A stretch of 64,000 bases of DNA from Siphonodentalium dalli (Eukaryota; Mollusca; Scaphopoda; Gadilida; Siphonodentaliidae), in contig CP136062.1 in the NCBI GenBank assembly GCA_032622095.1, forward strand, positions 155,304,875 through 155,368,874, written 5' to 3'. Each line of letters opens with the position of its first letter. Position 1 is the stretch's first letter. The notes under the pieces were generated by a model. The model saw only the letters and a list, made by a program, of their open reading frames with translations, had not been told where the DNA came from and searched no databases. The translations under genes and the position numbers were made by a program. Positions 5,220-62,617 of this stretch are shown here, one piece after another.

Positions 5220-5227
5220 TATCACTA

Positions 5228-5765
5228 CTGCACAATAACCCATTAAATGACCATTAAATTCCCATTAATCAGAAGTAATTAAAACACCATTAAAACCCAC
5301 TTAAAAACCCATTAAAAAAACCTCTTATTCGTTGTCCTTTAAGTGCCATTAAATTGCCATTAATACGGACCATTAATGGGCATTAAATCCAAAAATATTT
5401 AATGGCATGTACACAATGTGTTAATGGGCATTAAGTATCGAGTAAATGCCATTAAAACAAATTAATGGGTGGTGACATCTGTTAATGGGCATTAATTTCC
5501 CATTAAAAACCACTTAAAGGACAACGAATAATGGCCATTAAATTCATGGCCATTAAATACTTCGTAATTGTCATGGCCATTAATTTTTGCAGAAGCATTT
5601 TCATTGCTATTAATGGGCATTAATTTCCCATTAAAAGCACTTTTTACTTTCATGGCCATTAATTTTATGGCCATTAATGACATTCCACATTTTAATGGGT
5701 TGAACTTATTTTTACTTTAATGACCATTAATGAGATTTCGAATGGTTTGAAATAATGGCCATGAA
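5228..5765. repeat. Left subterminal CCATTAA repeat field of the CACTA element
   Basis: Dozens of short motifs of the type CCATTAA, GGCCATTAA and GGGCATTAA, in both orientations, lie between the left terminus and about 5,765. Spacing is irregular, so this is not a simple tandem repeat. In CACTA elements such subterminal fields bind the accessory transposition protein; that role here is inferred from position. Confidence 0.75.
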
Positions 5766-7091
5766 ATATACCATAGCAACCATTAACCAGGGCTGGCATT
5801 TTGCAGGCGGGCTGCCCGCCTACAGCCCACGCAAAATTATTTTAGGCGGGCGATTGATAGCCCGCCTAACTTCTCCTAAGTTTGACTGGCAAAGTCGCGA
5901 AGTTTTTCAGAACAAAACTTCAAAGACCGACACCGCCGACGAAACACGAAAGAGACTGTCGGTTTATTCGAAATTCCATCGCTGAAACAAAGACTAATTC
6001 GCGTTTATTGTCGACGGAGGCCACGTGCTATCCCGCACATCACTGTTATGTGTTGAAGTTGAACGCCATTCTGTTCCGGAGTTGAAATTTTTAACACCAT
6101 ACTTGAAATTTTGCGATACCTCAATGGAATCGAAAGTTGTTTATTCTCGTAAACTGTAAACAAATAAAAAAATTATGTGTAAATGAAATCAATAAATTTT
6201 ATAACTAGAAAGTCAATGTTTTCCGTAGGAATACTTTGTCAATTTTTATAACACATAGTTGATTCAGTGTCGTACGTGTCATATTAAACAAATTCTTCAG
6301 AATTTAGAAAATGCAAAATGAGTTGAAATTTGTGGAATTTCCGCGGACAATATTGATACAAATGTATAACAATCTGACGGAAAATCGGGACCAATCTTCC
6401 GAATATATTATTTTCATTCACAAGTCTGGTATGCTGTTTAATGCAATTTTTATATTTTTTGGTTGAGGAGGCTTAATAGCGTGATCACCTGATCACAAGA
6501 TACTAGGATATCCGTTATCTAATATACTAGTAGTTTAGCCTTCCACTCGAATGATATTAGTGTGTCATATTCAAAGCACACAATATATTATTCCTATTGT
6601 CTCGGCATTGCCTGTTTCAATTATGAATGAGCTTTATTCTTATCAATGGGGAGGTGGGATATGTACTATTGTACACTCCCACTCATAGTTATAAAAGTAT
6701 ACATATGAATAGTTTGGAGGGGTGTTCATGAAACCAACAGGAAACGACATGAATACAGAGTCTATAAAACAATCGCATCAAACTAGACAAATAGCCATTT
6801 CACACCAGCGTTGCTGAAGACAAATCTGAAACTATGGGTTCCAATAATGCTCCAGACCAAGTTTGAAAGAAATCCACCCAGTGGTTCTTGTGAAGATGTT
6901 TTAATGTTGCACCAAATTAAGCCTCTAAATTGCCCATAATTAACATATTGACCTAAGGCCATTAAAAATTAAAGTCCGGGCTCACAGGCAATTATGTCTA
7001 AAGTTTTGTTGAGGGAGGGAGGCTTTTTATATTTATTACTTATTTTAAATTCTTCAAAACATACCTCAAAATCGAATAATCATTTTTCATG
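5766..7091. other. CACTA interior, left part: no gene recognised
   Basis: It begins with a GC-rich stretch (about 5,788-5,880) containing several gcgggc/gcccgc words that can pair locally. This is followed by AT-rich sequence with no coding frame of note. Confidence 0.5.
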
Positions 7092-7098
7092 ATTCCAG

Positions 7099-7995
7099 CA
7101 GGGGGGGGGGGGGGCGGAAAAAAACTGCAGACACAGGGTGGAAAAAACAGTTTTCTTCGGTTTGGGTACCCCCCCCCCCCCCCCCCCAAACAGCAAAAAC
7201 TGCAGTTTTTTTCCACTGACCATTTGCCCCCCCCCCCCCCCCAGAAAAATCAAATCTACCCCAGCCGGACAACAACTCGGTTTGACTGCAAACCGAAAAA
7301 AACACCGGAGCATACAATTAACGAGAAGGTGCTTGGTAACTTAGTTTAGATTATTATGACTAAAATGGTCATTGTCTACCAGTAGAACGCAGATTTGTAC
7401 CTCGTGATATCATGACATGTACAAACATGTATATTGGTGATCGCAACGCTATGTATGCACTTTAAAAAATGACAACTAGTCATTACCTCGACTTTGAAAA
7501 AGATGCAAATGAGATGAGTGAGATACCAGCATATAACTGTTTTCTGATACCATTGGAGGAGAAATTGTTTAATACATGGGATAGTTCTCCAGTAAAAATT
7601 TGCCAGATAAGCGATCGCAGGGTAGAATTCTGCATTCGACTGGTAGACACTGACATAGTCGGCATTATTAAGAGTGTTAATGGGGTCAATATCACATGTA
7701 AACCAAGACAGTGGTTATCCAAAATTGTTTTATGTGGATTGTACTACTCGTGTATATATGATTTTGATATTAAGCCAATTTAAGGTTAATCCATATTCTA
7801 TAAAATGAGAGAAAATTGAAGTTGTGGGTCTGAAAATACATATTTGGAAAAACATTACATGCAAATTTTTTCCGACAACCCCCCCCCCCCCCCAAATGAA
7901 TAAGGAAAAAATGTACGTGTAAATTTGTTACGCCTGTGTACCCCCCACCCCCGGTACGTTGTGTCCCGCAGTTTTTTTTCCGCCCCCCCCCCCTG
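7099..7995. mobile_element. Nested hAT-like non-autonomous element, 897 bp
   Basis: The ends are CAGGGGG... and ...CCCCCTG. Internally they share an inverted stretch of a G-run followed by CGGAAAAAAACTGC (left 7,101-7,128, right about 7,963-7,993). The element is flanked by the 7-bp direct repeat ATTCCAG (7,092-7,098 and 7,996-8,002), extendable to TGATTCCAG if the bordering TG is counted. CAGGG termini with a 7-9 bp duplication fit a hAT-type element. It contains further C-runs at about 7,170-7,187, 7,229-7,242 and 7,880-7,893, and an unrecognised 104-codon frame at 7,469-7,783 (+). No transposase is visible. Homopolymer lengths may be affected by sequencing error. Confidence 0.6.
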
Positions 7996-8746
7996 ATTCC
8001 AGGTAATACAACTTGTCTCTGTGTAATCACATGTATAGCTCAATACTTGGGAATATTCTGACACCTCTGTTGTTCCAATTCCCAAAGCATGATGGCTCTA
8101 AATGGCCATTGAGGAAAGGCATAGCATGAGTTTTTTCTGGTTCTATTCATAATAGGGTGAGGGATATGGTTTATAAAGTCAGAACCGCTCAATGTCTCCC
8201 ACCAAATATCAGAACTGTACAATGTAACCACACAAGTAGAGAAACACACACCACTCAAATTACAAAAACTTCTGACAATTGTATTAGGAATTCTGAGAAA
8301 GCGGTCAGATTCAAATGTAGCAGTGCCATAATGTAGCAGTTCTGTTGCAGACATTTATGGCAATATATTCGTGTGTAGTGTTTTACTCCATACATTGGTA
8401 AATACAACCACACGACCGCTCTGTGCGATACACGTGTTCATTGTGCCTACATGACATGTATATATATCATAAAAATCCTAACACCAGTCAAAAGCTGCAA
8501 ATAAATTGCCTGATTTGGAACGAACGCGCAGATATGTGATTTTCGGTTTTCGGAGAGTAGGGACATGACATTAAATTAGTCATATGTGATCGTAAATAAA
8601 ACAAAAAATTGAATAGTATAAAATCTACTTTATGCGACTCATCGTCTATATACTTTTCGGCGCGGTGATTGTAATCTTTGCGTGTTGCATTGTTCCTTAA
8701 CGCAACGCAGTTAACGTAAACACGTTGCGTTGACGTTATGACCGCG

Positions 8747-8824
8747 TTGTTAACGCCTGGGGACCGCGTTAAACAGGACACTTATTTGTTAACGCCTGGG
8801 GACCGCGTTAAACAGGACACTTAT
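8747..8824. repeat. 39-bp tandem duplication
   Basis: Two essentially identical 39-bp units lie head to tail at 8,747-8,785 and 8,786-8,824. Each contains TTAACGCCTGGGGACCGCG. Because 39 is a multiple of three, the unit repeats in frame (LLTPGDRVKQDTY twice) in the frame at 8,738-9,145. The unit and its upstream flank are rich in GTTAAC/AACGC words. Confidence 0.9.
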
Positions 8825-9330
8825 TTTGAGAAGATCTGTGCATCTGTAATTGTAGGTATCTCAGCGCAGGAGCCTTGCGACTGTAGGTGCATGTGGTGTC
8901 AAAGTGACAGTTCTGATAAATTGGTTGAATTCATTGGGAGGAACTTCAAGAAGAAAAAAGTATTTGTGAATAACTTCATTTTAATTTTTCTATTAGATCA
9001 CCTATTTTGGCACCAGGAAACACTTTTGCCCATTGAAACTACTCGAGTTTCCGATATAGAATATCGGTTTAATGTCTTTCAAATCGTTTGGAATTTTCGG
9101 GATTTCGCCAAATCATCAGATTTATTGCATTTTATTGTCTCATAAAGTTCACCAACAGATGTTCCTTCGGTTAATCCTCCATATACACTCCACTGCAGGA
9201 TAACTGTGATCCCTGTCGTAATGCACACAGAAAACAAACTCATTTTCCCATTTTAATCAGTCCAAAATTGATGAAAAATAGACAAACGATAACATTGGAG
9301 CACGTGCTTTTGACACCGGAAGTAAATATA

Positions 9331-9383
9331 ACCGGTGCTTTTAAAAATGTGACCGGTGCTCTTAAAAATGTGACTGGTGATCC
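9331..9383. repeat. 21-bp short tandem repeat
   Basis: About two and a half copies of a 21-bp unit beginning ACCGGTGCTTTTAAAAATG, with a few substitutions, inside the CACTA element. Confidence 0.8.
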
Positions 9384-10472
9384 AAAAATAAGTCCCTATC
9401 ACTAGCGTATGGAGGGGACTTTTTTTTTCCTTTTTTAAATTGCGATAAATGGTTTTGATGCGGCGGACTTTTAGTGATGCGGGCGGGGCCCACGAACACA
9501 GACTTTAATTTGTAATGGCCTATTAAAGGTATATATCTTTATTGAACACATATTCCCAATAAAGGATAGAAAACCACACAATGCATCTTTTGAAAATATT
9601 GTGTGTCACTGTGGAACTGATATTTGTTGAAAATGAGTGGTTTGGTAACTTAATGTGCGCCAGAACCTCTGGTGACAAGCCTGTGACTCTAAATATCGTT
9701 ATGAAAGTGCTTGCTCGATAAATTCAGCCCCCAATCAAGTGACAATATATCACATTTTATCGTATAGTATATATATTATATATCGTAAAGTTACTAAGGC
9801 TCGAATTAGTTTCTCCTCTCGAAAACAAGCATATAGCACTGACGCATGTCAGGTGATCAAGCGTCCCAGTCGCCCTGGCGGCTTTAGTTTGAAAATACTA
9901 TTGGTGACATCACATAATATAGCTATAGTGTATATCATATATATATCAAATTATCTAATTAATAAAACACACTGATCATCAGACATGATTCCATTTCTAT
10001 CCATGAAAACCGTTTTGCATTTGGGTTGTATTGGTATTTTATATATAAAAGCAGTTTAACAAGCTTAAGTTGCACAGGCACAACTTGTACATTCCAATTT
10101 ATTTCATTAGAATCTAAAAGAAACCACATTTGGAAAGTGATGAACATCAATTTTCCTATTCCAATAAGATGGGGTGTTAATTAATAATATTTACACTTCT
10201 ACCTCCACTTCTGGTACCGAGATTGGATCAAGTCTTCTGTTTGGTCAGGAACTGATCAGCTGATGGAGCAACCGTAATGCGTAAAGTGTGAAAGAAGTGA
10301 CACCTGCTTCACATGTGTAACGTAGGAATTACGTTAATAACGCGCCTGTCGCTTTCAACATTCTATTTTTCATTAGAAAACGGTGCAAATCAGCTGTGCA
10401 AATCATTCATTTTATTCAATATTCGAAACCAATTTCCATTGAATGTTCTTTTTGGTGTGTAAATATAAATAA

Positions 10473-10597
10473 TGCTTCCTGTATTTCCATGCGTTATGAA
10501 ATCAGGTTGGTCTGACAAAGTTATGTGAGGAGCGCTTCAGCGCTACGCACTGCAACCTGCTTTCATACATCGATCATATCTAGAAATACAGGAAGCA
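10473..10597. repeat. 125-bp hairpin (MITE-like inverted repeat)
   Basis: TGCTTCCTGTATTTC (10,473-10,487) pairs with GAAATACAGGAAGCA (10,583-10,597). Further in, tatgaaatcaggttg (about 10,495-10,509) pairs with caacctgctttcata with one mismatch. The loop contains a small palindrome around AGCGCTTCAGCGCT. It lies within the CACTA element and is either a tiny foldback insertion or a structure of the element itself. Confidence 0.75.
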
Positions 10598-10614
10598 AAC
10601 TTTCAGTTCTTAAT

Positions 10615-11195
10615 GAGTTTGATGGGCATTCATTTTTCCAATTATATGTTAATGGCCATTAACCATCATTTAGGGCCCTTAATTTGTTTATTACTAAGTT
10701 AATGGGCATTAAACACCAGCACTATTGAGGTGATAGCCATTAATTTTTCAAAATGATTAGATAATGGCCATTAAACACCCAAATGCATATAAGTAATGGG
10801 CATTAACATATAATTAATGAGCAAAAAGTTTTCAAATCATACAGTTATGGGCAGTGGTGGGTATAAATTTGTCAAAATACTTAATTAATGGCCATTAAAC
10901 ACTCAAATACATATAATAGATGGATAATAGCCATTAAAATATTAGAGACTATGGCCATTAAATTGTAGTCTTTACAAATTTTAAGGGCATCTAATGGGCA
11001 TTAACAATACATGGTTGATGATTAATGGGAAATAGGGCAGTATTGGCCATTAAAATAACAAAATATATTGGTTTTTAATGGGTTCTGGGAAACCCATTAT
11101 TTTTTTTGTTACGAGAATTAATGGCATAAAGTAATGGATTTATGATATTTAATGGGATTTTAATGGGATTTAAATGAGATTTTAATGGGTTGTGT
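10615..11195. repeat. Right subterminal CCATTAA repeat field of the CACTA element
   Basis: This is the mirror field of the one at 5,228-5,765. Motifs such as TTAATGGG, GGCCATTAA and GGGCATTAA recur from about 10,620 to the right terminus, densest in the last 100 bases, where TTTAATGGGATT-type units follow one another. The interior between the fields (about 5,770-10,610) has almost none. Confidence 0.75.
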
Positions 11196-11209
11196 GTGCA
11201 GTAGTGTAT

Positions 11210-23393: not shown

Positions 23394-23497
23394 AGTCGTA
23401 GATAGGGACACCACTCATAACGCATTTGCAACTCATCAGTTAATAAACCATCGCTGCACATTTATATCGCACCTTCGATATCCTGTAATTTGTCAAA

Positions 23498-23789
23498 ATG
23501 TCTCGTCAAAATTATAAAATTAATGCTGAGGATCGTGACATGTACTCCTGTCGTTCGTTCAGCTTCACATCAAAAGGACTGATCAACAAGGGGGATTCGA
23601 TGCAATCTCTGAGTGACGTAAGCCTAACATCAAGTAGTGGCTGTTCTGACTTCTTTTACGCAGACGAATCGGTGCTAGACAAAGAATGCTGCCGTGTAGC
23701 TATCGTAGGTTCACATGGCGTTGGGAAGACGGCGCTGATACGACAATTTATGACGTCAGAATACGTTGGTGATGTTGACGATGTGGAAG
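23498..23789 (+). CDS. RGK gene exon 1, copy A
   Basis: Codes for residues 1-97 plus the first base of codon 98. The start ATG is in a favourable context (gtcaaaATGt) and is the first ATG after the predicted transcription start. The donor is GTTGGT at 23,790. A nearby GTACCG at 23,794 would break the frame into exon 2. Relative to copy B it lacks 33 bases after codon 48. Confidence 0.88.
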
Positions 23790-26700
23790 GTTGGTACCGT
23801 TAATTTATTTTGATTGTTTCAAGATTCGAATGGGTACCTAATTAGTACCTAAGGTAATTTCCAGATAATATCAATGTCAAATATAACCAGAACGAGCCAC
23901 TGGCTTTTTGTCTCTGGAAGTTACATAATTATAATACATAATACATAACTTTGTTCAGCAAATTGAACGGCACCGATCTCCAGTACCGGGGCTGTATTCA
24001 AATCATATATTCCTTTCTTCAAATCGTCCATTGATGAACTCGCGACTACAAAACCAGGTAAACTGTTCATGTTAGAAATTACACGTGAAAAACATATTTA
24101 CGGATATCCTTTTTTAAGTATGTCCCTTGTAATTTGAGTTCATGTCCTCTGTTCCGTTTGTAATCAGCGAATACAAAATAATAACACCGGTCCGTGTTAT
24201 ACAAACCGTTCTGATATATAGAAACCTCGATAAAATCGCCCCTAAATCGTATATTATTCATATATTTGAGTTTTACGATGCGTAAACCAGGCATAATAAT
24301 AAACGCGATGTGTTGCATCCCAAAGGGATAATTACACTCACTTCATTTGCTGTAGTATTTACCCCATCGATATCCAAATATTAAATGCTTTTAAATAGGG
24401 TAATTATATTGGTATGGGAATGGACGTTGCATATTAAATTTCGCCATGACAACGCAAGGCGTCGCGGCAACGTCACTACAAAGTTCCCAATATTTAACAA
24501 TAGTTCACAGTTAATCTATGTGTGTATATAAGTGTATTACGGGTTGATAGTTTTCACTAAAATAACTATAATTATTAATCGACGTATCATAACAAAATGA
24601 CAGATTTAATGGCATTTATCGTGTCCGACCAAAAACTGTTCGCAATATACAGATATGGTAAATGGACCAATATCATAGCAATTAGCCAGGCTGCTTAACA
24701 AGAGGTAAACAAATGTACGACAGATTATAAGACATCACCATCGCGACGAGCACTGACCGAAATCGTGATTGTATGCTGTAACCCTTGCTACACTAAAGCA
24801 TCATTGAATAGTTGTGATCCCAAATGAAATGTTCAGACAATAAGCTCAACAAACGACCATTGTCTTTGTTGAACTTATTATCTAGACGGTTCCCTCAACA
24901 AATAGGTCTCCTTCTGCTATATTATGTATCTGTCGTCTGCTTTTATCACATAACATGCCTCCAAACAAATAATAGACTATTCCAACATACCGTCGTGCGT
25001 GCGAGTGGGTTAATTTTGGTCCTAAATATTCACATAGGTTCATATTGAACTAATTTGATGATGACATAATCCCATAGAGAGCTTATACGGTTATTATATG
25101 TCGCGTCGATGAAAAAGTGACAAAAGAATTCCAATATGGGCTTATTTATTATTGAAAGAGTCCCATAATGGACTGTTTTAGAACGCGCTTATATGTCCAT
25201 ATAGAGCATATATTGAGCCTATTTCGCACACAAAAACAAGCCCGTTATAAGCTTATTTTTCACGAGAACAGGCTGACTATTCATATGTACACTTTTCAAC
25301 TGACTATGAAAATCCATTTAGTATAGCAAGAGTTAATGCCCCTCACCCAAAGTTAACTTAGTTAAGTATAAAATATTGGAAACGTTTACAACATAGCTGT
25401 GACATTGACAGATAATTTTCCCGAGAATACGAAGCTGGTATATTATTACGTCATGAATTATCAACCAACATGTATCATACCTCCTTCCAAATTATGTTGA
25501 CATAATTTGGAATCTCGAATGAGTCATTTGAGGACTTAAAATATTTGTCAAATTTTACTCTTCAGGTACCAACTCGCTTCTATAATAATATATAATTTCA
25601 GAAATCAAATAAATCATTACATACATTATTGTTTTGGCCATATGAGAGGAAGCTTCATTAATTTTGTGTCACACTGTTGATTATATGATTTATTACATAG
25701 CACAGCCCCATATATTGCAATGAAGAATAAACCAGCCACATTTAGGCCAATACATTATTGCAGGATCACCGCCTAACGATATATTAAGACATGTCTCCTC
25801 AGACCTTAAAATATATCTAGTAGTAATTTTAATTTCCTAGGCAAATATTTTGACAAGAACATTACAATAACATTGAAAATGTCGACAAAAAAGCTTGGAA
25901 ACACGGAAGATTTCTAACACAGTGTTTTTGGCAAAAAAAAAAGAAGCTAGGCATCACAAATTATTAACATCGATATGGAGAATAACAGTGTCGGTAAGAT
26001 GATGTCATGTTTTATATTGCTTGCTACTATTTCCAGTTCCGCTTTTTCTAGCTATGCTTCTGCTGTAACAGTGCTGCTCACAATTGGTATTCTGAAATTC
26101 GATTTGTTGTTTGCATTGTTTCATTCGCTATATTCCAGAAGATGATGACGATAACATCAAACAGGTGTCTGTCATGTTAAATGGAGAACAAGTCTGGCAA
26201 TGCTTTAACGAGGAACTAACAAACCAGGTATGATCTAATCCATACCACGGACATTTTGCTCCTATTCACTGTCTAAAATATATTTCATACTAGAAATTAA
26301 ATATAATGACGGCCGGTACGACTATATATATCTCGAGTTTGAAATTAATGATGTATTCATGTTTCCAAACCACCCGTAACTGGCATGGGGCTACAAATGT
26401 ATTTACTTAAATTACACATTTCAAAGATAACATATAGCATATAATTTGTTTTTCAGTCGATGTATTCGCCTAGAATTACAATACTTAAGTTAAGAAATAC
26501 GTTAGGATTACATATAGAATAAAGCTGAGTGTAAAATTTTCAAGAGTGGAATTGTGGTTTTAACCACGAGTCTTTTGGCGAGTTTTTAAAACCACAATTC
26601 CACTCGTGGTGACAATGTGGTACTGAGGGTGCTATATTCGAGGGGCACGCTTACTCAATTTAAGATATTACGGAAGTAGTGGCACGGGTTACTGTTTATT

Positions 26701-41639: not shown

Positions 41640-44600
41640 GCAACGTTAGATGTGCTCACAAAACCTAAGGATACACAATGATGCGAGTCTTTCCAGTAGG
41701 AGCGTGGACGAACAAAGTATGAGGAGTTCCAACTCTAGAACATCCTACATACAGTTGTCCATGCGAAAATTAAGACAGTTGTAAACAAACAACAAATACA
41801 GTTTGGCCTTGAGACTTATTAATTGAAATGGCAAAGCTCAATTTTTGATTTTAGTTTCTTAAACCGAAACGGAATGTCAGATGGTATGGGGGTGTGCATG
41901 GCATAAACACATATTATCCACAGCCAGGCAGAATAGTAGCCACAATGACATGCTCCAATAGCTTAGTGACCACCAGCCGTGTTCCGTTGAAAATGTTGCG
42001 CAGACGCATGGTTTTGCTCCTGCTTTCAGCCAAATATGGTGAAGAGGAAGACATGGTACCATGGCTCTAATAAATTAAATTATGTGCGATAGGTGACAAC
42101 CTCTGATGAATCTGTAACAACGTCAACTGATGTGTAGGAATGAGAGCTCCCGGGCATTTCATTAACACGTTTGTTGTTGATGCTGTTCAGTCACAGACAT
42201 TGGCGCAATAATTGCAAGTTTACATAGACAAGTAATGTTTTGATAGTGGTCGCGTAGGCTTGAGAACACACGTGAAACGGGGAAGGATCCACACGCCATC
42301 ATCGTCTAAAACACTTTAGTTTCTCTAAGTTGTTGTAATGTTCGAGCGAACTGTGCGAAAGCTGGTTCCCATGGAGTTGTGCTCGCAGCGATTTATGGTT
42401 ACATGGTGCCGCAACGAAGAAGACTTCACGCAAGCCTGGTTCTCGTCAGCTTTCGTCCCCCTGGTAATGACTGGTAAAGTTTGCCTAAAGTCACCAGACA
42501 ACATGACAGTGAGTCTCCCCATTTGTGGATTTGTATCCCGCACGTCTTTTAATGTTATGTCAATTGCCTCCAATGATCTGGTATGTGCCATTGTGCATTC
42601 ATCCCATACAATCATGTGTCACGTTCTGAACAATTGCGCAAGTCCGGAAGTTTTGGAAATGTTGCAAACCGGAGCATCATTGGTGACCAAGTCCAAAGAC
42701 AACTTAAAGGCAGAATGAGCTGTGGCAGCATTACCCGACGAAGCAACATGTTCGTGACGAAGTTTTCTCCCCAGTTCCAGCAGGTGCATCGTGAAAACAT
42801 ATTCCTCCAGTATGAGATTGCATTCGACCGATGGTGGAATATGCTACCCTTTATTCGTGTAAAAAAAAAATCATTTTCATTAATGTATCTGACCAAAGAA
42901 TCGATGTCGTTGAATGTTTGCCGTAATATCTCGTTGTCAGAATGTTCAGCTCGCTTCAGTTTGAGGCCGACCAAGCGTATGCAGTCCTTCTCCTCGCATA
43001 GCAATAACCATGTCTTCTATATCTATTAATGCGACAATGAAGACCTCATCACTGTAGGCACTTTCCATTTCCGGGTATCTTAATTGAACCTGGTGTTTAA
43101 AATCTTCAGAAAAATCATCCCGTTATTGGTATAGTATTAAAGGATCACAAACTTCACATGTTTTGAGGATAATTGCAGAGAATTATGAGGCTTGTTGCTG
43201 AATGCGATGCCGAAGATTTCATTAAAGTTGCATCCCATTTGGTATCGTCTTCGAGCAGTTCGCGCTTAACGCATGCTTCTCGGTAAGTAGCGCATACGTC
43301 GCCATCCACAATCCGGAGATCTGCAAACGAAGTTGGACAACTGACTTCACGTAGGAGTAGTCTTTAAAACAAACATGAATGTTGGTTGGGATGGACGGTG
43401 TGTACTCCATAAAGCAGTGTCAAGTCTAATGTCAGCATGATTGTCTAGAGCACCTCAGTTTCTTCAAGTTCATCTGTTGTTACACCACGTGTAGTTGGGT
43501 GGTATTGGGTTATAAAACAACGTTTGTGCAAAGGAATCTTCTTGACACAGTTTAAAGAAAACCGTCAGTATAGTATCTCACGGTGATATTGCTGCGTTAT
43601 CGGTGGGTAGAATAAACCCGCTGACCATTTTCCAACTGGACAGCAAGTTGTTGGATGGCAGGATGTCGTTCGTGGATTGGAAATCCAGATATCCTCCACA
43701 AAGCTTCATTGCTGCTTATATATCGGCCCATCTGGTATTGGGTAACTTCATCGTGGACATCTTGCTGAAGTGCATGCATAGCAGCATCCGATGTTTTGTT
43801 GTCGCCTTCGAGCAATTCGCGCTTAACACATGTTTCTCGATAAGTAACCCAGACGATGCCATCCACAGTCCGGTGATCTGCAAAAACGTGGGAGGTGGGA
43901 CCCTTGACTTCATGTAGTAGTCTTAAATGGAAACATTCATGTTGGCTGGAATGGACGGTGTATACTCTCACTATAGTAGTGTCGTGTCTAATTACAGCAT
44001 TGTATTCTACTACAGAACCTCGTTTTCTTCTATTCCATCTGTTGTTACGCTACGTGCAATAGGATTGTACCTGGTGATAAAACAACGTTTGTGCCAAGGA
44101 ATCTTCCTGACACAGTGCTATTGCCTGATTTGCAGCATTATCGGCGGTAAAATAAACCCGCTGACCATTTTCCAAATGGACAGCAAACTGCTAGATGCCA
44201 TGATGTTGTTAGTGGACTAAAATTTCAAATATCCCATAAAACCTTCATTGTTGTGTATATATCTGATTGCTTTTAAACCACCGTCTCCATGTCTCCTTCG
44301 CATGTAAGAAGGATACTCATCCTCGGCTGTTTTAGTCTCCAGAATAAACGATTCGCGGTACCGTTTCTTGCACTTATTGTCTTTCATACACGGTGATTTG
44401 TGTTTATTGGAATTGAATGGACCGTGTACCATTATTGTGTGTCTCGACAATGTCGAAGAGCCATCTGTCTGTTGCAGGATATGGAAGCTCTGCCGATATG
44501 ATGGATTCAAGCTGGTTGGATTGAATTTTGGTGATGAGCCAAATCAAAATATGCGCATGCGGCAACGAATTCTATGGTGGACTTTTGGCACCGCACTGGT

Positions 44601-45460
44601 CCGGCAATTTGGGACATTGTCATGAGGTCCATTACTTTCAGTACTAGGTGGAATGTCAGTGAGATAATATCTGTGACGTAAGTTTGACCAAGTAGAAGCT
44701 CACATTGTGTTTCCTTCCATTTTGAATTACATGTGATTGTTATAAGTAGATCGGATCGGTCGTAATGCCGAACAAAGGTCATGGCATGAAATGACAGGCA
44801 TAAAAGTCCATACAAGAGACGGTCTTTCTATAGTTTCACCTGCCTGTGGAATTCCAAAGTGATAACCCTCTTCCCCATTCACAAACAACAGAGGTTACAA
44901 TAGGACATCATGCTATCTGTGTTTCGATGTTGCGTCTGAGATTATTATATCTGCATTTTAAAACAATATCCCTGGTTTCATATACCAACCAGTCACGATC
45001 ACAGCTACTTCGTGGCATTACGGTGCATTCAAACGGCGAGCATGCTCTCCAGATTGAACATTGTCAGCATCAATGACGACTTCTTGTTCTTGTCTAGGTG
45101 CACATTCCAAGGTGTACTTAGACCTTTGAACGCTATTGGTTGAATGTAGCATGTTCTGTAATGTCACAATGATATCAAATCGTGTTCCTTGGTTTCCGTT
45201 GTATCTACTCTGCGTCTGGCTCTGAGGATCTCGCACAAAGTAAAGTTTTAGATATCGAGGTTGTTCGTCAGGCAGCGGCTGCAGGGATCCGAATATGTGG
45301 TAAACCTGCCCTTGGACTTTAGATATAGGCATACGCCCTCCTTCCCCGTTGATATTGGGACCTATCGATGTTATCTGAACTGCGATATTGTAGTTGAATG
45401 TTATTCAGAAAATGTTTCGATTCGGGCGTGGTGCCGACCAGAAGACTCCGATGGTTCTAG
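41640..45460 (-). pseudogene. Helitron RepHel (Rep nuclease plus Pif1-like helicase), decayed
   Basis: Read from 45,460 downward, fragments in changing frames follow the order of an animal Helitron protein. The N-terminal domain comes first (QGQVYHIFGSL, SGEHARRLNAP at 45,332-45,018). The Rep region follows (MTFVRHYDRSDLLITITCN), with the HUH motif as LPHAHILIW near 44,570-44,540, one frame away from the flanking code. Next are NMVHGP-like and SSNEALWRI blocks and YTVHSSQHECF. The helicase has AHSAFKLSLDL, Walker B IVWDECTMAH, and LSGDFRQTLPVI (about 42,710-42,460). The C-terminal block ends NKSQGQT-like and QLYVGCSRVGTPH-like near 41,720. Helitrons move by rolling-circle replication. Stops, frameshifts and an internal duplication make this copy dead. 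Its TC and CTRR ends were not located. Confidence 0.88.
43195..44265. repeat. ~555-bp tandem duplication inside the Helitron relic
   Basis: About 43,195-43,762 and 43,763-44,265 are related in direct orientation: CTTCGAGCA.TTCGCGCTTAA at 43,249 and 43,806, TAAACCCGCTGACCATTTTCC at 43,608 and 44,150. The Rep-region blocks around SSNEALWR and YTVHSSQ are therefore present twice, and the order of the protein blocks is scrambled. Confidence 0.82.
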
Positions 45461-45922
45461 ACGCATGGTTATTCTCATCGTTCAGATATGTACCCCACAT
45501 AATATATAATATACAAAAAACTGTTGAGAGCCCCATGCTATTATAATTAAACTGTATAATTGAATAATGCGCATATCGTTCTACAGAGGTACATATACCG
45601 CGGTTCGTTCTATATGAAACAACCGAGCCGAACACTGAAACAAACGCAAAAAAATGTATTAATGTCAATTTTGCCCCCATTTGTGGCCAAATTATCCACC
45701 ACATAATTAATTATGTTGTGTTTCAGCGACACTTTTTAGAAACGTTTATCTTATCTATTATGGTCTTAATCCAATTAACCGACATCAATTCCCGTTCAGT
45801 ATATCATGTAGACGTCTACATATCAGTTTCTATGAAAATCGTTGAATTAGTTTTATCAATTGTGTTGCTCGTCATCCGTGATATCAATTCCTGACCCAAA
45901 ATGGAAGCCAGCCGGAACATTT
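45461..45922. other. No gene recognised (junction before copy B)
   Basis: AT-rich sequence between the Helitron relic and the start of copy B. A minus-strand frame at 45,704-45,405 has no recognisable domain. No gap, terminal repeat or transposon end is visible at 45,923. Confidence 0.5.
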
Positions 45923-48173
45923 ATGCTACGTCATTAGTGTTCGTATAGCGCAGATATCTACATATACGTTTGGGGACATCCAGGATACAAATGTGTTGTC
46001 AATCTTGGTGGTTCGCCCATTCATTGACTTCGGCGGTGGAACGTTTGCAACTTTAAATCATACCTTAAATTCCATGTACAATGGACATGACTATATATAG
46101 GTTTGGTGGAAATCTAAATTGACATCAGCAAAGCGTGTATCATGTTTGAGCTCTTTCACTGATCCACAACTGTGACATCGACTTTCGTATCCTTAAACCA
46201 AACCATTAGACTCCCTATAATCGATTACAGAATATTTTTTTTATAAATGTGTGGTCTGTGTCATTTGGGGACCTTTAAACTACACCATTAATGCCACTAT
46301 GATGGAGCTGGCTAACGACTCGTCAACTTAGCTTTTCAATAACCCCCAAGGCAAGTATGCAAGGATGACTCACATTTAATGTCCACAAATTTGAAGGACA
46401 GCGAACGAAAGAAATGATTTAATCCACCGAGCCCGTTTCTTATACCATTGAATTGTATGATAAATGTGTTTTGGGAGGTCTATTTTACTTTAAACAGTTA
46501 ACCATATATACCGCGTTCATATATCTAATGGTGGTTTCTTAATAACAGGGTCGTTTGATTCTATATTTTATGGAAATACTAATAATGCAACACGTTCGAA
46601 AGAGATTCATAGAATTGTGGGTTGTTGTTGCTGCTGAAAATGTTCATGGGGAGTGATAGACCATCAGTCATGATAACGATATGGTACAAGTCTGAGTTAA
46701 GAATAAGATTGTAATGGGCTTAGAGTAGTCATATCGGTTATCACAGGTAGAGTTTATAGTTTTGTTTAGAATGAGCTGTTAGTATTTTTGAATGACTCGG
46801 TGTACTCGCACCAACGGACTGAAGGCCGTTGATACTTGCGCGAGTTATTGCTATATATCCATTGCTCTTGTTAGTCTGATAACATTGGATCATTCAACGT
46901 GGCAATTTACAAACTTAGTTGGCGAAATGCTTTGTCCTAGAGATGTAATTCTGTACTTCTGCAACTTTGTACAGTGGGTTCGGGTGTTATATCAAGGGAT
47001 CCACAAAGACACTTGTGGGTTGTCAAGTTGCAGGTATCATTTAATGACTGGAGAGGCGAATTCCTTTCGGATGTCGCTATAATCAGTACGGGTGGTGGTC
47101 GGCGATGAAATGTGTGTTTGTATGATCATTTAAATCACTGCAGTTGAGTCTGGGGCGGGTGTGGTTAATATGTGTTTGCCTGGTATTAGCTTCATAATAA
47201 TGTTGGTTAACTCCCTGGTCCCCATTTAGGAACTCTGTAAATTATGCCAGGGACGCATAACTTGTTTCGTTGTGGTCGATATTATTCCATAGGTCTATTG
47301 TTGAGGGAATTGAAGGCAGCGGAGCCGAACGTCGAGGCTTGGGGGAATTGGCCTGTCGGGTCTAAACATTTGTTATTTGAAAGCTTGTTGGGGTATCAGA
47401 GGCTTGCCGGACATCATTTTGTTTCCACCCGGTTTCCTTGTCATCGGAGAAACTTTCAGCCTTCGCAGCAACGTTACTTTTGGTGTGAAATACCGATCTT
47501 TTCCAAGAGGGTGGTATTTTCAATTGATCTGGGGGGAATAGTTTGGTTAGGGATCTTCTTCCTGGATTATATGGTACGGTCGTTGGTTGGAGTATTCATG
47601 AGGTTATTCACTTTCTCATAAATTAAAATTTTTATGAAGTGTCGGCTCGTTTGCCTACATTGGTGCTCGGCGTAATCAATCATGTATTGTTTGTCATTTT
47701 TGTTTGCTGATGTTTGGTATTCTTCTTAATAGTTTTGTGTGCATGGGTTTCACGTTGTTCATCTCTACTTTGAGGTGATTTGCGCACTCTGTAGTAGATT
47801 GCATAGCTGATTTAAAGAAAACCTTATGAATGCATAGATGTATTGACAGCCATAGTTTGTACGTTTCGGATGACATAGCATATTGTTTGTGTCGCCGGCG
47901 TCATCCCGGATTTGTGAACATCTGGCCACTTCCATAGCCGTCGATCGCACATGAGTAGTAGGTCCTCGGTCGATCGAGATTTGGGAGGCCGTCTGACCAA
48001 GTCAAGTGACGAAATGTCCTTTCTTTTTGTTGTAATTGAACTGTATATCATATTATTACTCATTTTACCTTGTGGGTCTGCAGTTGTATTCCGTTTTCCC
48101 GGATACTTAGTTTATATACTGTCTATTGCACGGAAGCGATGAATATCGTCCAGAGAACTACGATGTTAGGTAT
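45923..48173. other. No gene recognised (left end of copy B)
   Basis: Counterpart of 1-2,289, missing the 38 bases corresponding to 1,157-1,194 (junction after 47,078). The open frames are the same and equally unconvincing. Confidence 0.6.
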
Positions 48174-49856
48174 CAGTAAAATTTGGCGGATGGTCAATCT
48201 TTCGTTTTTTTAGTTGCCAAATGAAAATAAAAGCAGAAGATCGACAACTATCCCAGCAGACACCTCGGACTACCCATCGAATTATGGTCGGGCCAAAGAC
48301 TGGTACATAGCTGGAGCGGTGACCCGTTTAGTCACTGTTCATACCAGCCTCTCGGTACATCACCGCAGTGAGACAGGCGTTAGCAGTACACTGTTGAAAC
48401 ATTTATAAGTCATGAAGACGAAATTAACGGCACAACATACATGATAAACAGAACACACAACTAGATACCAGAAAAAAAAAATAACAGGTGGCAGAAATTT
48501 AATCTGAAACACTGTGAGTGTCGTGACTAGCCGATTGATTGAGCCGGATCAACTCAACCACCCGTATTGAAGAGATGTAGAACCAAAGAGGACCATGAGC
48601 TAAGCCATTACCACAGGTCGATGTCTCACTTGACACGGCTGCCCTAGTATTAACAGAACTCCTGCACCACACACCAAGGGATGCACCCCTCGGCAAAAGT
48701 GGACCACTTTAGGGTAAATCTTTACGGGATTCTTAATAAGTGAACCTATTCTACCCGGGTCCATACGGGGATGATTTCTTTATTATGATCAATTGGCAGC
48801 AAGCAATACAAAAATAGTGGTATATGTGGAGACAAATAAGTGTTGATAGAGATCACATGGTGAATATCCATGCACTCCCAATGGCGATTCCTCAATAAAT
48901 CACCCGAATAGCCTAAAGTGAAATGGGTTTTGTATCAGATGCTGAAATGCGTCTACGATTATGTTAACTTGTCGGATTGCAATAGCTGTTCAACATAATT
49001 ATAACAAGGCAATTTTGAAAGTCACATGTGAAACTAAAGACAAACTATGCATAGATGTCTGAAATATCAGAGCTCATGGAACTATGTATGATATGACACT
49101 GATATGGACAGGAATGTCACCCCAATAGCCTCGGGTGGTATTCCGTTCTCGATCGGGCGATACACATCCGCGTTGCACTCAAGCACTAGCGACAACTGTA
49201 TACTGTACTTACATATTTGCCCAAACACGTCTCGTCTTGCTCTCGTTTCCATCGATCACACCTACGCGACTATAGATATAAAGAACCATATTCGACATTG
49301 GTATGCGACTTATGCATGATGGCATATTAACGATGTATCCATCGGCGGCATAAATGTGGCAATAATTATTCCTCCAATACCCATCTTACAATTGGTTATA
49401 CATAAGGACTTGATAAAGCATACTGAGGTGTGAGATGATAACATAAGAGAGGATAGCACAAGTCTGAGTATTTTAAGTCCTCTCCTCTAAGTTTTTCATT
49501 CTTCTAGAACCAAGAGCGTTTGGTGGGAAGATTCCATTGCACGATATTTGAAAGTAGAAATAATTCATCACATTGCTCTTTTAAATTTTACAATTATTTT
49601 GTCCTTTAACGTACATATATAATGAACTAACTTGTGTCCCTTCTCTGGTATGCAGTCAGCAACAACCTGCTAAACCGAGGGGTGACATTGGCATCCGGTG
49701 TATGATGTACAGCTGAAATGCGGGCATATAACTATACTTCAGTAATGCAGAATATTAACTCACCAGTACAAGGTTACAGTCCGTTACACCCTATTTCCCA
49801 GAACTAAGTACAAGTGGTGTACGCTTGAGGATGTTCTTGGGACGGAGACTCGTGAT
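48174..49856. repeat. Unclassified repeat R1, copy B1
   Basis: Counterpart of 2,290-3,970, with scattered substitutions, for example the CGGGTGG versus CGGTGG difference near 49,134. Confidence 0.75.
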
Positions 49857-50073
49857 ACGAGAATACCGATTTCTGGTTTCGCAGTAACGATACAGGTTAT
49901 TTCTTTGATTGTTCATCATTCGCACGTTAGGTTGATTTTACAACTATTTATTTATATTATTCTCACATTGTTTGATATCACACTGCCGTTATGGTACATT
50001 CATACGCTTGCAATATTGCACTGAAAACTGCAGAAATGTCAGCTGTAAAATAGTCAAAACGGATTTTTGTGAC

Positions 50074-50267
50074 AGTTTTCAACCAATAAGCTTTAACAAT
50101 GATCATGTAGAACTGCGATTTTTTGCATGATTGCTGATTGATTGGTTTGGGTTTAAGGTCACTTTCAGCTGCCAAGACCATAATACGACATTGCCAGTTT
50201 TAGTGGTGGTGAAAACCGCACATTTACGGCTAATCTAAACTCTCGTCGGCCATGTGCGGCAAACCAC
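50074..50267. mobile_element. 194-bp copy-B-only insert
   Basis: Copy A reads straight through at 4,187/4,188. The insert is non-coding, contains ggtttgggtttaagg and gtggtggtgaaaacc words, and has no obvious terminal repeats or target duplication. It may be a SINE-like fragment in B or a deletion from A. Confidence 0.5.
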
Positions 50268-50334
50268 TGGCCATCGGCGAGTGATTGGCAACTCCACCAG
50301 ATAACGATTTCAAGTTAGAATGTCCATGATGGAA

Positions 50335-50425
50335 ATATCTGGATTTGAACCCTCATCGCCAGCGCTGGAGGGCGAGTCGGCTTCGAGTTGTACCCCTATC
50401 CGACTGAGCCATCGATACACCCGCG
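50335..50425 (-). repeat. tRNA-like pol III head (SINE or tRNA pseudogene), copy B
   Basis: Identical A-box (complement of 50,400-50,411) and B-box (complement of 50,341-50,351) to copy A. Confidence 0.6.
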
Positions 50426-51299
50426 TGATTGCTGATATCGCTGAGCTATTTACAATTATATTAAGAACACAGTGCGTGTTGGTATTCTTATGCCTGTCAA
50501 AATAATGTCACTTGATATGTTGGAATGTGAGATCGACACGGCCAGCGCCATCGATGGGATGCTGCTGATATATATATACGAGTACCATAAATGTTACATA
50601 GAGATGAGATGGTGCGCCCGCACTTGGCTCAACGAAGAAATGCGGCGACTTTCTGACCTTCGATAAATCGCAGTGTAAGTCAGCCTTGTAACATACATAC
50701 ACTATTTAATCTGAATCTGTATTATCAAACTTTCCAACTATTGGACATTCCCATCGTAACACAACCAATGGTTGAGACGTCTCAACTGATTGCTGCATTT
50801 CAGTCAAAAATTCGGTCCTTCAGTCTAAACACACAATAATACTCTTTGTTATATCAAATTATCAGCACAAAATTCAACATAGTTTCGTCGGAAATTTCCA
50901 ATTAATGTTGTGTCAGGCATTAAATGTCAAACTGTTGTACTCTTGGAAATCCACCCTGACACATGTCCCTGGTGGTAAGTATTGCATTGATTGAAATATA
51001 GGTTTATAAAAATACTTGATTTTGTTCATATATAGTAACTAATTGGGCTATCCGGCGTTGTCCATGCGAGTTAGAATGTATTTTTGATATGCTTTATTTG
51101 AGTACTAAATTTACATAATCATAGCCTACACACAATAATTTACTGCATAGGTGTATATATGTATACATATGTATATATGATTGATGTATCAATGTCGAAG
51201 AATATCCATTGCCACTGCTGTCAAGACCCCCAACATGACAAAAGCAATTTTCAACACAACTTTATTACATCAATGCAGTGTTTAAGATAATCGCTAGAC
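50426..51299. other. No gene recognised
   Basis: Counterpart of 4,346-5,219. Confidence 0.6.
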
Positions 51300-51302
51300 T
51301 AT
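51300..51302. other. Empty CACTA target site (TAT)
   Basis: Flanks cgctagac and gttcgcccggg are continuous here, whereas in copy A they are separated by the 5,984-bp element and duplicated TAT. No footprint is left, which favours never-occupied over excised. Confidence 0.9.
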
Positions 51303-52095
51303 GTTCGCCCGGGTTCTAACCCAAACATATTCGAAAATCTGCACCTCTCAATGTGCCATTCCGATCGATACATTGCCATTTCGATAATAATTGAGAAACA
51401 GTTCAAGCTCATTGAATTAAGCACATTTGAAACAACGAATACCCATACTGAGTTATTGCCTCCATAAATCTTACGTTTGGTGAAGTTGGCGACAATGTTA
51501 GTGTCAATTCTGCCAGCCCCCGCCACCCTAGCTCCCAATTTTCTGATTTGAGAAGTACCACTATTATGCCACGTCATGAGAGTGCTCGCGTATAACGGAG
51601 AAGCGTATACATGCATAATTAAGTACGACAATCGCCGATACCAAAATGTTCTATCAACGCCCCTCCCCGATACACAATTCGTATCAAGGACAACCACTAA
51701 TTCATCATTTGGGAATAAATTATTTGATAAAATACTAATTTAAAAAAAAAAAAAAAATACTAAAACAAAATACAGAACCAAAAAAAAGAATAATAATATG
51801 CATAAGAAAGAGGATAACAGCAAACTCACTCAACATTATATTAAGACAAAACAAAACAATTGTGGTGCAAAATAAGGAAATGTCCGATAAAAATGACTGG
51901 ACAATTTCTTAAATGAGACCATTAAATTGGGTGGATAATAATTGAATTAACTTACTGGAAATTCCCAACTTATCCCAAGTCCGCTAAGTTAGATATATTG
52001 TAGGCCCATGTACCTATCATCGCCACTCTCCAATGGATTACAATTTTCCAACTAGTACTTCATTCCGTCCAGCTGATGGAAACTCCCAAATTGAC
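51303..52095. other. No gene recognised; 132-codon minus-strand frame of unknown status
   Basis: Counterpart of 11,210-12,000. The frame 51,697-51,299 is the uninterrupted version of the one truncated by the CACTA element. No domain is recognised. Confidence 0.4.
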
Positions 52096-52283
52096 ACCCC
52101 TATAATAAAGGTTCGAATGGTTTCCAAATGATGACCATTCTGTCCAGATGTTGGAAACCTCAACAAATACCCCAATAATAAAGGTTCGAATGGTTTCCAG
52201 CTGATGACCATTCTGTCCAGATGTTGAAAACTCCCCAACTGACACCCCTATAATAAAGGTTCGAAAGGTTTTCAGCTGATGAC
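52096..52283. repeat. 74-bp tandem repeat, copy B
   Basis: Counterpart of 12,003-12,190, same unit number. Confidence 0.85.
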
Positions 52284-52912
52284 AATTCAATCCAAACAGT
52301 TGACCGAAATTAGGATATCATTCCAATTTTGGTCCAAAAATAGAAGAATTAAAACAATTTCAACCATTTTTAGTTTAAACATATTTATTTGTCTAATCTA
52401 TATAACCCATGACATATAACACATATATTGTGGAATTGGAGGACAGGTGCTAAATCACTTATGGGTACCCATCTCCCATATCACTGATAAATAAATAATT
52501 AGTAATAGCAAACCAACTTGACTACAAAACAAGTTGAACATATCACCGGTCACCCCCACCATTTTTGTCATGTTCCTCCAACTAACTTACCAGGCATGGA
52601 TGACATTTCCAACTGCTAAAAGTTTTACCAAGGTTGCAGGTGAGACACCAAATACAAGTTTGTGAAACCCGAGTTCCAACTTTAAAACAACCCGTTTGTT
52701 TTAAACTTGATATCCAGTCTAAATATAACGGTGAATGCTCAGCAATTGACATGGATTTCACAATTTCATTCGTCACCGAACGGATATCAATAGTCTCAGA
52801 ACAGGTGAGTGGCCACATGTGAGACTCATACATGGGGTGACTATATGGTTTTTGTTGTGGTGGAGGATTTCATCTTCTAATTCCAATCTGCATCCCACCA
52901 AATTCCCAACTA

Positions 52913-54597
52913 TAGAGAAAACGGACGACACGACGCTCGTACTTGTTGGTTCTGAAAATAGTCTACGTGAATCGTACTTAACACTGGACGAATTTGCTCG
53001 GATATCGGGTCTGCGCATAAATCCTGAAAAATATCAAGCAGGCATGGATAGGGATAGGGTCACAAAATAAAATACGACAAGCTATTACGGAACTAAACCT
53101 GTCTACTGTAAGCATTTAAAAAAAATTAGGGATACATTTCGACACTAATTTAATAATCATGAATATAAAATACAATGATAGACTCGAAGATATAGAACAG
53201 ATCACAAACATTTGGAAACACAGACTCCTGACCCCTTTAGGTAGAATAACAGTTGTCAAATCCCTCATCTTACCAAAATCGACCCACTTATTTATAACTC
53301 TTCTACGTCCAGATACAGCTTTTTTGAAAGCCCTAAATACCTGTTTATACAATTTCATTTCGAATTCCAAACGTGATAGAATAAAAAGCAAACAACTATG
53401 TGCCGACCATATGCGCGGAGGTTTGAAGATGATTAATGTTGAAAACTTTGAGAGCGCCATGAAAATTAACTGGATACGACGCTTGATTTGCAAACAATCG
53501 AAATGGGCTTCATTGTGCAATACCACCCCTTTCTTAAACGACCCACTATCTCTCACTTACCATGCAAATTATATTGTAAAGCAAACAAACAAGTTCGCAA
53601 ATCCATTCTAGAGAGATGATTTCGGCGCATGGTGTAAACTTATGCGATCAAATAATTCAAATAATAATATTATGGCCTCAAATTTCTGGAATAATCCGAA
53701 TATAAAAATCGGAGGTTCGTCGATCAACTTTAAATCTTGGAGAGATGCGGGGATATATTTTATAAATGATCAATTCCAACCAGATAGTAAATGCCCTACC
53801 CCATATACATTATATTCAACTTTCAACATCGTGTTCCCAGAGGGTGAATTTCGTGATGCTAGCCCGCTATGTCGATTTCATAACAATCAGCAACACAATA
53901 CGTCATATACTGTCATTGGCAAGTTCTCTTAATCAACCCTTAATTCGTGTACCCTGCACATGCCCACACAATAATCTTCCTCCGATACTCCGTGACTTAA
54001 AAGGCGGACATTATTTTACACAATTCTAGCAAGTGGGAACACTATGCCGAATGCATGCCAAAAATGGGAATCCGAAATAGGCGAATAGATAGAAAATTGG
54101 GAAGATTATTTGAGCATTCCCTTTAAAATCGGTACGAAATTACAGTGGCTCCAATTCAGAATCAATACACGAATTATTAGTACCAATACATTTCTGAAGG
54201 TGGCTATCATTCGAGTCGATGGTTTTTGTAATCGCTGTCAAAACATACAAGAAACAAATACTAATATTTGCTGGGATTGTCCCCATGTCCAAACTTTTAT
54301 AAACGAAATTTTAACATGGACAAGAAACAACCAATTCCCCGTTGATCTACAAAAAATAATATCATTTTCGGTATAGTTCATGAACACAGAAATTAAAAAA
54401 GTTATATTTTCCTGCTGGTTTTGAAACAATATATGTATAGAACAAAATTCACGCCCATGCAGTTGTCTCGCTTGTTCCTTTGTGATGTCAAATTTAGATA
54501 TGAATGCGAGAGATACAGCGCAAAATGTAATATGAATCGTGACTTCGATAACCAGTGGCTGACACTTCGATATGCCTTAAAAATTCTGTGAAATTGT
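52913..54597 (+). pseudogene. Non-LTR retrotransposon reverse transcriptase remnant (L1/Tx1-like), copy B
   Basis: Counterpart of 12,820-14,460 and slightly better preserved. It keeps TDDTTLVL with both aspartates of the catalytic doublet, a serine-tyrosine codon pair lost in A (SLRESYLTLDEF), and 38 bases missing from A near 53,835-53,872. It still carries frameshifts (an A-run at about 53,117) and a stop at 53,609-53,611, so it is dead. Confidence 0.85.
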
Positions 54598-55193
54598 GGA
54601 TATTGCTCAATAAACTAGAAACAAAACTGAACTAATGTGGGTATCTAAACGCAGCAACTGTGTTTAGACAAAGCCATGCATTATACCAAAATTAAACAAA
54701 ATACATACAAATAAAAACACAGAAACCAGAGCGAGAGTGCTCGATTGCGGTCGGAACCATTAAGAAACTGACCATTGTGCAAACACAGATAACACATAAT
54801 ATCAAAATAGACAACAATACTGCTTTGAGAACAGCCAAGATATAAAACCTGTATAAAATTAGACAGCAAAATTTAATTTAATTTAACAAGGCTCCGGCAT
54901 ATACCATTTGAAGTAGCTGGCAAATAAACCTCATGAATGGTTGATAATATATTTATAATCTGTTGAATATGGGGTCAATTCAACAAGTTGATAATTGGTT
55001 AGTTGACTCAGTAGTTGATCCCTCGCCCAACAGCCAGCCTCCCTCCACATAGCATACATGGTATCCACTTCCCTCCATGTTAACATGATCTCTCGAAGCA
55101 TAGCATCGAACATTAAAAACTCAAAGATCAAACGCTGTTTCCGAGAGTCAAAGATTTGACAGATTTTGGAGATTTTTGTTTTTGAACAATATG

Positions 55194-55914
55194 ATCAACT
55201 TGCATAGATTGTTTCGGATGATCTGTCTCGACAGAGGAGACGTAATCCATTACTTGCGCTACTGGTTCTGGAATAGGAATAGTATCACTATTCCTGCAGG
55301 AATAGTATCACTATTCCTGCACGTGCGTTGCTAGTGATACACTGACGAGTTTAGTTTGACTCTGTGTTTGAGTGCTGTCGCCAGCACACGTTTTGTAGAC
55401 CCTATTGTTGAGTACGTAATCTGTGGCCGAGGACAAACTATTTTCTTAGCATCTATATATGACATATTCGTCTCAGCAATATATCATTGAATCTTGAATT
55501 CATACTCCAAATTGGGACATGGATGATCCATTGAAGCATGTTAACCTTGAGAGTTTGAACATTGCTTAATATTCGTACAATCCTTATGACCAGGAATGGA
55601 ACAGTGTGCGCACCTGGTTTCTTCACTTTTACAATGTTCATGGTCATAGCCTTGACATTTAAAACATTGCAATGGGGTTGGAACATATGTGCTTATATCC
55701 GTCTTCATATACCGAATCTTCAATGTCGGTGGATGGTCGCAACGACTGAAGTTCAGAAGATAATTATTCAACGGAACGTTTTGACCATCGACTGTCTTAG
55801 TAAATCTACGGACTTCTGGAACTCCCTGTGGTGTTCTCAGCCAATATCTCTGATTCAAAGGAATCAGCTATATCGCGAATTCTCAACACAGCTCTACTAC
55901 TGTTCAATGACTTG
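55194..55914 (-). pseudogene. Non-LTR retrotransposon ORF1 remnant, copy B
   Basis: Counterpart of 16,600-17,330. The frame 55,858-55,541 keeps the glycine in the first zinc knuckle (CFKCQGYDHEHC). The same internal stop follows the second knuckle. Confidence 0.8.
55275..55318. repeat. Two tandem 21-bp palindrome-like hairpins, copy B
   Basis: Identical to 16,681-16,724. Confidence 0.85.
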
Positions 55915-56154
55915 AGATGTGTGAGCAATATTGGTGTTTGTGCAATGGATGTTAATTGAATAAGAGCGTTTGCTTGAATTTTTCTTGAACATTTGATCAG
56001 AAGAGATCCACTTAGTGGCCAGTCCTGATCGGTTTGACAGATTTTGATTGTCCGGCTATGCTTTGTAGCGTTTTATCAATAACAAATGCAGAAGGTTTTC
56101 GTGACATTTGATCAAAACCAAGTACTAAGGAAATACCTCAGCATCAGTGGAACT

Positions 56155-57625: not shown

Positions 57626-58084
57626 GATTGTCTTGTGACGGTCTTGTATATAATCCACACCAAACTGCTCAGTGCGATAATCAGGGGACACAGTATCTCT
57701 GTGCACATGTCTGCTGATGATAATTAGCTGTACATTTCTGGTGACAACCCCTATTGCTTTACAACTATAATGGAACAGTGCAATTATTTTGTGAAATCGT
57801 GGATGGTGGCCAATAAACTGAAACTAATTAGTGACAAAACTGAAGAAATGTGAGTGTCTAATCTGGCATACGTAAAGAAAGTTAGCATATATGTTATGAC
57901 TTTTGATGACACTCAAGTTCACACTCCTACAAGCCACATATGCAAGGCAATATACACTGAACTTCGGCGACATTGGAAAATGAGAAAATACATTCAAAAC
58001 GACTCAATTTTTTAAAAACGTTAGTCATCTCTAAGTATCAGTCGACCTGACTACAACAATTCTATTTTAATTGGTGTTCTATAT

Positions 58085-59256: not shown

Positions 59257-59259
<3 letters not shown>

Positions 59260-59288
<29 letters not shown>

Positions 59289-62505: not shown

Positions 62506-62514
62506 TATATAAAG
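62506..62514 (+). promoter_or_regulatory. TATA box of RGK copy B
   Basis: TATATAAAG about 105 bases upstream of the ATG, a closer match to consensus than the copy A version. Confidence 0.65.
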
Positions 62515-62617
62515 AGTCGTAGATAGGGACACCACTCATAACGCATTTGCAACTCATCAGTTAATAAACAATCGCTGACATTTATATCGCACCTTCGATA
62601 TCCTGTAATTTGTCAAA

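Follow-up and report, generated by a model that had tools for sequence, protein, structure and literature searches.

In the accounts cited here, the CACTA (En/Spm) transposons of plants have short terminal repeats, subterminal stretches of several hundred base pairs with direct and inverted repeats, and 3-bp target duplications, and their ends are described as required in cis (PMC8978399). Animal members of the CACTA superfamily with a Transposase_21 domain have been reported as TRC elements (SmTRC1, its insect relatives and Spongebob of Hydra; PMC1636069), which are characterized by CCC tips and 2-bp duplications (PMC1636069; PMC4298943). Enlarged EnSpm elements are on record from algae, with lengths of 16–20 kb for a red alga (PMC6431247) and of at most 15.2 kb for Ectocarpus (PMC12477816); the same two sources describe giant elements that carry nested insertions along, as well as families without transposase genes (PMC6431247; PMC12477816). 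Here we analyze a 5,984-bp CACTA/EnSpm element in a 64-kb stretch of the genome of the scaphopod mollusc Siphonodentalium dalli (64,000 nt, hereafter the window, to which all plain coordinates refer), together with its relatives in the same 2.23-Gb assembly of nine contigs, which are named by contig and position (C1, C2 and so on) or by an L-number. Very probably, the element is a non-autonomous CACTA transposon that entered a single unit of a gene array by cut-and-paste, mobilized in trans, as it would seem, by the TNP2 transposase of 32-kb relatives.

The element occupies positions 5223–11206 of the plus strand. Its left terminal inverted repeat, CACTACTGCACA (5223–5234, plus strand), and its right one, which reads TGTGCAGTAGTG on the plus strand (11195–11206, minus orientation), match perfectly over 12 of 12 bp, and each occurs once in the window. 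The tips are bordered by two copies of TAT (5220–5222 and 11207–11209), a target site duplication whose length is unambiguously 3 bp, because the adjoining bases do not prolong the repeat. These borders emerge from the comparison of two duplicate copies within the window, A and B, which are separated by 1.42% substitutions and 23 gaps, two of these being ragged alignment ends. When 1–24900 was aligned with 45900–64000, copy B was found to run uninterrupted through the site (...GCTAGACTATGTTCGCCC...), with one TAT at 51300–51302 and no footprint, and the gap of 5,987 bp fell exactly at the element plus one TAT. A 12-bp inverted pair with equal 3-bp flanks is by itself not rare in the window, where five such perfect pairs occur at spacings of 300–8000 bp; only the pair at 5223–11206 lies where the alignment of A and B has its 5,987-bp gap. 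An earlier reading of the DNA made without database searches (the sequence-only reading) had proposed perfect 12-bp CACTA-type repeats, a TAT duplication, a clean empty site in copy B and these same element borders, and on all four counts it was accurate.

Both ends of the element carry dense subterminal arrays. Taking [CG]CATTAA/TTAATG[CG] as a half-site and ATGGSCATTAA as a full site, the left 578 bp (5223–5800) hold 29 half-sites (50 per kb) and nine full sites, and the right 597 bp (10610–11206) hold 19 half-sites (32 per kb) and seven full sites. By comparison, the 4,809-bp middle holds three half-sites, and the other 58,016 bp of the window hold 30, a flank density of about 0.5 per kb; all 16 full sites of the window lie within the element. 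A first-order Markov simulation of each tip (2,000 runs) gave a mean of about one half-site and a maximum of five, against the 29 and 19 observed. Close to the tips the half-sites are spaced by 11 bp, about one helical turn, or by twice that distance: the CCATTAA units of the left end lie 18, 29 and 40 bp from the tip, and those of the right end, in mirror orientation, 19, 41 and 52 bp. Searches for the end pattern in viral contigs gave no match, and the sole match in bacterial and archaeal contigs, in a Clostridia metagenome-assembled genome, was judged a chance occurrence (8 half-sites per 8,000 bp). As for coding content, the six frames of 5800–10610, translated with stops as X, yielded no Pfam match at E ≤ 1, and no transposase turned up in the element; across the window, neither Rfam at gathering scores nor a tRNA search returned any match.

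A search of the genome with the left 300 bp of the element gave 48 matches, and the best 40 of 118 candidates were scored. All 30 left ends that we fetched, the window's own among them, begin with CACTACTGCACA, so that the same start recurred throughout and no different left ends were encountered; one copy (L010) has an additional CACTA 10 bp upstream. Apart from the pairs L017/L018 and L022/L024, the 1.5-kb flanks of the fetched left ends are unrelated at the junction. Twenty copies were fetched as 10-kb pieces, and a right end was visible in 18 of them, every one with an exact 3-bp duplication, as the sequence-only reading had anticipated in preference to 2 or 4 bp. Seventeen of these duplications were found by pattern and the last in L051, whose right end is mutated and whose flanks are still equal (ATT/ATT). 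The two other copies, L036 and L048, showed no right end within the piece, the nearest listed right end of L036 being 20.4 kb off. The target sites are diverse (AAT, GTT, AGA, ATA, AAG, TTA, GTA, CAT, GGT, TTG, TAT, TAA, TCC and ATT), and the closest relatives seen, L032 and L033, are 98.2–98.3% identical across the whole element. Such near-identical copies suggest that cut-and-paste activity has been recent.

For the right ends we searched with the element's right 300 bp and scored the best 40 of 130 candidates. Pairing with these was possible for 35 of the 40 scored left ends: 23 at 5.3–9.5 kb, one at 20.4 kb, ten at the distances of the giants described below, and one at an apparent 13.5 kb, which borrows a neighbour's right end and is to be discounted. 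L040 and L044 were unpaired by this procedure, yet complete in their 10-kb pieces. Frames of at least 130 residues in the 20 pieces were viewed by eye and seven were scanned against Pfam; none of the seven matched a transposase, although split or short exons would escape such a scan. Two were reverse transcriptases (L036 and L040), one, in the flank of L051, was a rhodopsin-type receptor (E 2.5e-21), and four had no match.

A transposase was found in much longer copies, in agreement with the TNP2-bearing autonomous partner that the sequence-only reading had envisaged elsewhere in the genome. PF02992 (Transposase_21) has 78 matches in the assembly, 12 of which lie in open frames of 909 residues. 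For ten of the 40 scored left ends, such a match lies 24.7–25.6 kb inward on the same strand, in each case in a 909-residue frame, against a random expectation of 0.06 left ends within 30 kb of a match; for the other 30, the 49 best matches compared include none within 100 kb. All ten of these giants are closed by a family right end, at total lengths of 31,430–32,365 bp (median 32,317), with 6.13–6.19 kb between the end of the domain and the right tip in every copy. Two 909-residue matches, at C1:95503381 and C3:271406948, have a right end about 6.2 kb further on and no listed left end. We read the left 1.8 kb of three giants (L027, L030 and L031) and 570 bp of giant middle. The three left tips are about 0.2% apart over 480 bp, and each has 30 half-sites in its first 578 bp. 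The one domain read is stop-free over 190 residues and scores 96.6 bits to Transposase_21; by eye, a C-x2-C stretch in it resembles the C(2)C motif described in transposases of this group (PMC12730594). A search of PDB sequences with this piece gave no match at E ≤ 1. The ten giants are likely to be the autonomous source of the family.

Could the 32-kb objects have arisen by segmental duplication, or by joins made in the assembly around some smaller element, rather than by transposition? We think this improbable. Matching duplications are missing in four of the ten (C4:160946867, C3:459920, C2:230262293 and C5:191059190), which speaks for this reading. The other six, however, have exact 3-bp duplications, for which the chance probability is 3e-9 to 3e-6 at match odds of 1/64 to 1/20; moreover, the near-constant spacing of ends, domain and shared right part recurs in ten of ten giants on six contigs, and the three left flanks read (1.5 kb) have no homology reaching the junction.

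Several observations nonetheless weigh against our main reading, in which the giants supply the transposase. The four unequal pairs of 3-bp flanks occur despite intact tips, and to reconcile them with transposition one needs ectopic recombination, misassembly of a 32-kb repeat or damage to the site; recombination between copies, or the misjoining of near-identical repeats, is a plausible cause. The transposase is known from a single 190-residue stretch of letters. The tip of the giant L030 is 3.5% away from that of the window element over 480 bp, and 66 more PF02992 matches lie outside the 909-residue group, so some other relative could be the real source. At C7:18.86–23.97 Mb, twelve PF02992 matches of near-equal score, each with one TAG stop, lie within about 5 Mb of a single contig.

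Comparison with the giants shows what the short element shares with them. Its left 1,734 bp (5223–6956, plus strand) are about 92% identical to the three giants read, and its right part (9588–11206, plus strand) is also common to the giants, the two stretches compared being 9588–10600, at 95%, and 10907–11206, at 96%. The segment 9588–10600 matches all ten giants, adjoining their right ends. The window element thus retains roughly the outer 1.7 and 1.6 kb of a giant, and its middle (6957–9587) stands in place of about 29 kb that include the transposase domain. For part of this middle, 7996–9587, the scored matches (best 40 of 786 candidates) included none in the ten giants; they lay in short copies, the 20.4-kb copy and a copy at C6:197779773 that has no listed left end. 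The simplest reading of these data is that the short copies go back to an ancestor resembling the giants and lost its middle, although a short form may instead have grown into the giant.

On the explanation that we prefer, cut-and-paste would have placed the short element in one unit of the tandem gene array, and a 3-bp staggered cut would have generated the target duplication. The ends recognized would consist of the 12-bp CACTA tips together with several hundred base pairs of CATTAA-type subterminal sites, and these match the 32-kb family. Most likely, giant and short copies alike are mobilized by the giants' TNP2 (Transposase_21), provided in trans; we infer this recognition in trans, as well as any present activity. 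The short copies probably lost their middle of about 29 kb, or had it replaced, and nested insertions would then have altered them. More tentatively, and with the balance of probability against it, the giants may be cargo-carrying animal CACTA elements, in which co-travelling genes fill the approximately 24 kb that separate the domain from the left part common to all, the whole unit still moving, and this outside the haploid-rich lineages from which giant DNA transposons are known. The closeness of the three left tips and the open 909-residue frames are the points that would speak for such continuing movement.

The array that received the insertion is extensive. A 501-bp piece of copy A (23400–23900, covering a Ras-like exon) has 39 matches at C2:155.08–157.00 Mb and one on C7; with the best 40 of 69 candidates scored, the array comprises at least 39 units. 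It spans C2:155,076,404–157,004,260 with a median spacing of 40.8 kb, and four units at its low end are on the minus strand. The exon resembles Ras-type GTPases through a weak Pfam match below the cut-off, and may be that of an RGK GTPase. In copy B, the exon (62609–62953) carries an in-frame insert of 33 bp that copy A does not have. The window scan also gave an olfactomedin match, below the cut-off. Together with the rhodopsin-type receptor frame beside L051, these matches agree with an animal host.

Among the 40 scored left ends (of 118 candidates), a single one falls within the array interval, which, within this sample, confines the insertion to one unit. This fits the earlier proposal that insertion followed the separation of the copies. 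The same proposal spoke of two duplicate copies and of a polymorphism; A and B are indeed duplicates, though two of at least 39 units and not a lone pair, and the site is indeed filled in A and empty in B, a difference between array units and not, on this evidence, between individuals. It is very unlikely that the 6-kb gap reflects a deletion or excision in copy B instead of an insertion in copy A. Such an event would leave a one-sided gap just as an insertion does, but here the borders of the gap coincide precisely with the two tips of the element, a single TAT is missing as well, no footprint remains, and the scored left ends include one in the array interval. The size of the array disfavours a pure haplotype-duplication artefact as the origin of copies A and B; alternatively, haplotypes may be mixed within the array.

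The short element has itself been a target. A nested insertion at 7099–7995 has CAGGGGGG...CCCCCCTG ends and 7-bp ATTCCAG repeats, and we call it hAT-like from its ends (the G-run) alone. In 18 CACTA copies with both ends present (17 fetched plus that of the window), its site is filled in 11, empty in six and undecided in one; four of the empty copies show the exact predicted empty site and two align through it. The insertion has therefore been carried by the CACTA element after landing inside it. Possible further nested insertions are marked by two inverted pairs of 11 bp (6482–9859 and 8208–8917), each flanked by 4-bp repeats, where simulation gave 0.02 such pairs. Elsewhere in the window, 42000–45899 (minus strand) contains Helitron remains, with a PIF1-like helicase at E 2.5e-24 and a Helitron_like_N match below the cut-off. 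A 527-bp insertion in copy B (59220–59746) overlaps an open frame at 59433–59798 (minus strand), which by eye resembles the tail of a non-LTR (long terminal repeat) retrotransposon; a similar tail occurs in L043, without a Pfam match.

The short element is ordinary, and it is the 32-kb CACTA in an animal that is unusual. The open-licence PMC literature searched contained, in the text available, no CACTA/EnSpm element above 20 kb in an animal and none of 32 kb in any host, a weak negative since Repbase was outside the search. Transposition is said to become less efficient once the cargo exceeds about 6 kb (PMC6431247), and another source associates giant elements with haploid-rich life cycles (PMC12477816). 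If true, the spread of a 32-kb CACTA in an animal bears on the upper size of cut-and-paste elements. Furthermore, a genome that contains both filled and empty sites, many non-autonomous copies and a 32-kb partner with an open transposase frame permits a direct test of CACTA trans-mobilization outside plants.

We assign the family to CACTA/EnSpm because it combines CACTA tips, 3-bp duplications, direct and inverted subterminal arrays and a TNP2 transposase, the Transposase_21 domain being present in ten of ten giants. There is hardly any chance that it belongs to Chapaev3, a CMC relative. CAC...GTG ends and 3-bp duplications are common to that group, but the source that describes them also reports Chapaev3 at TWA between A and T (ATWAT; PMC4079192), whereas TWA occurs in 4 and ATWAT in 0 of 17 independent sites here (the window counted, L051 left out). 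The giants' domain, moreover, matches Transposase_21/TNP2. PIF/Harbinger elements duplicate TWA and Transib elements 5 bp; the former are dismissed by the TAT of the window and by TWA at four of 17 sites, the latter by the 3 bp seen at the empty site.

Set beside the described systems, the family resembles the CACTA elements of plants in its tips, short terminal inverted repeats, subterminal repeats, 3-bp duplications and, in the encoding copies, Transposase_21; it differs from them in its animal host, in a motif made of a CCATTAA half-site plus palindrome, and in transposase-bearing copies of 32 kb. With the TRC elements, as these have been described, it shares an animal host, the superfamily and the Transposase_21 domain, but membership of that group is rejected by CACTA rather than CCC tips (30 of 30) and by duplications of 3 rather than 2 bp (the window element and each of the 18 copies whose right end was visible). 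Like the giant EnSpm elements reported from algae, it is enlarged, here to 31.4–32.4 kb and in an animal host.

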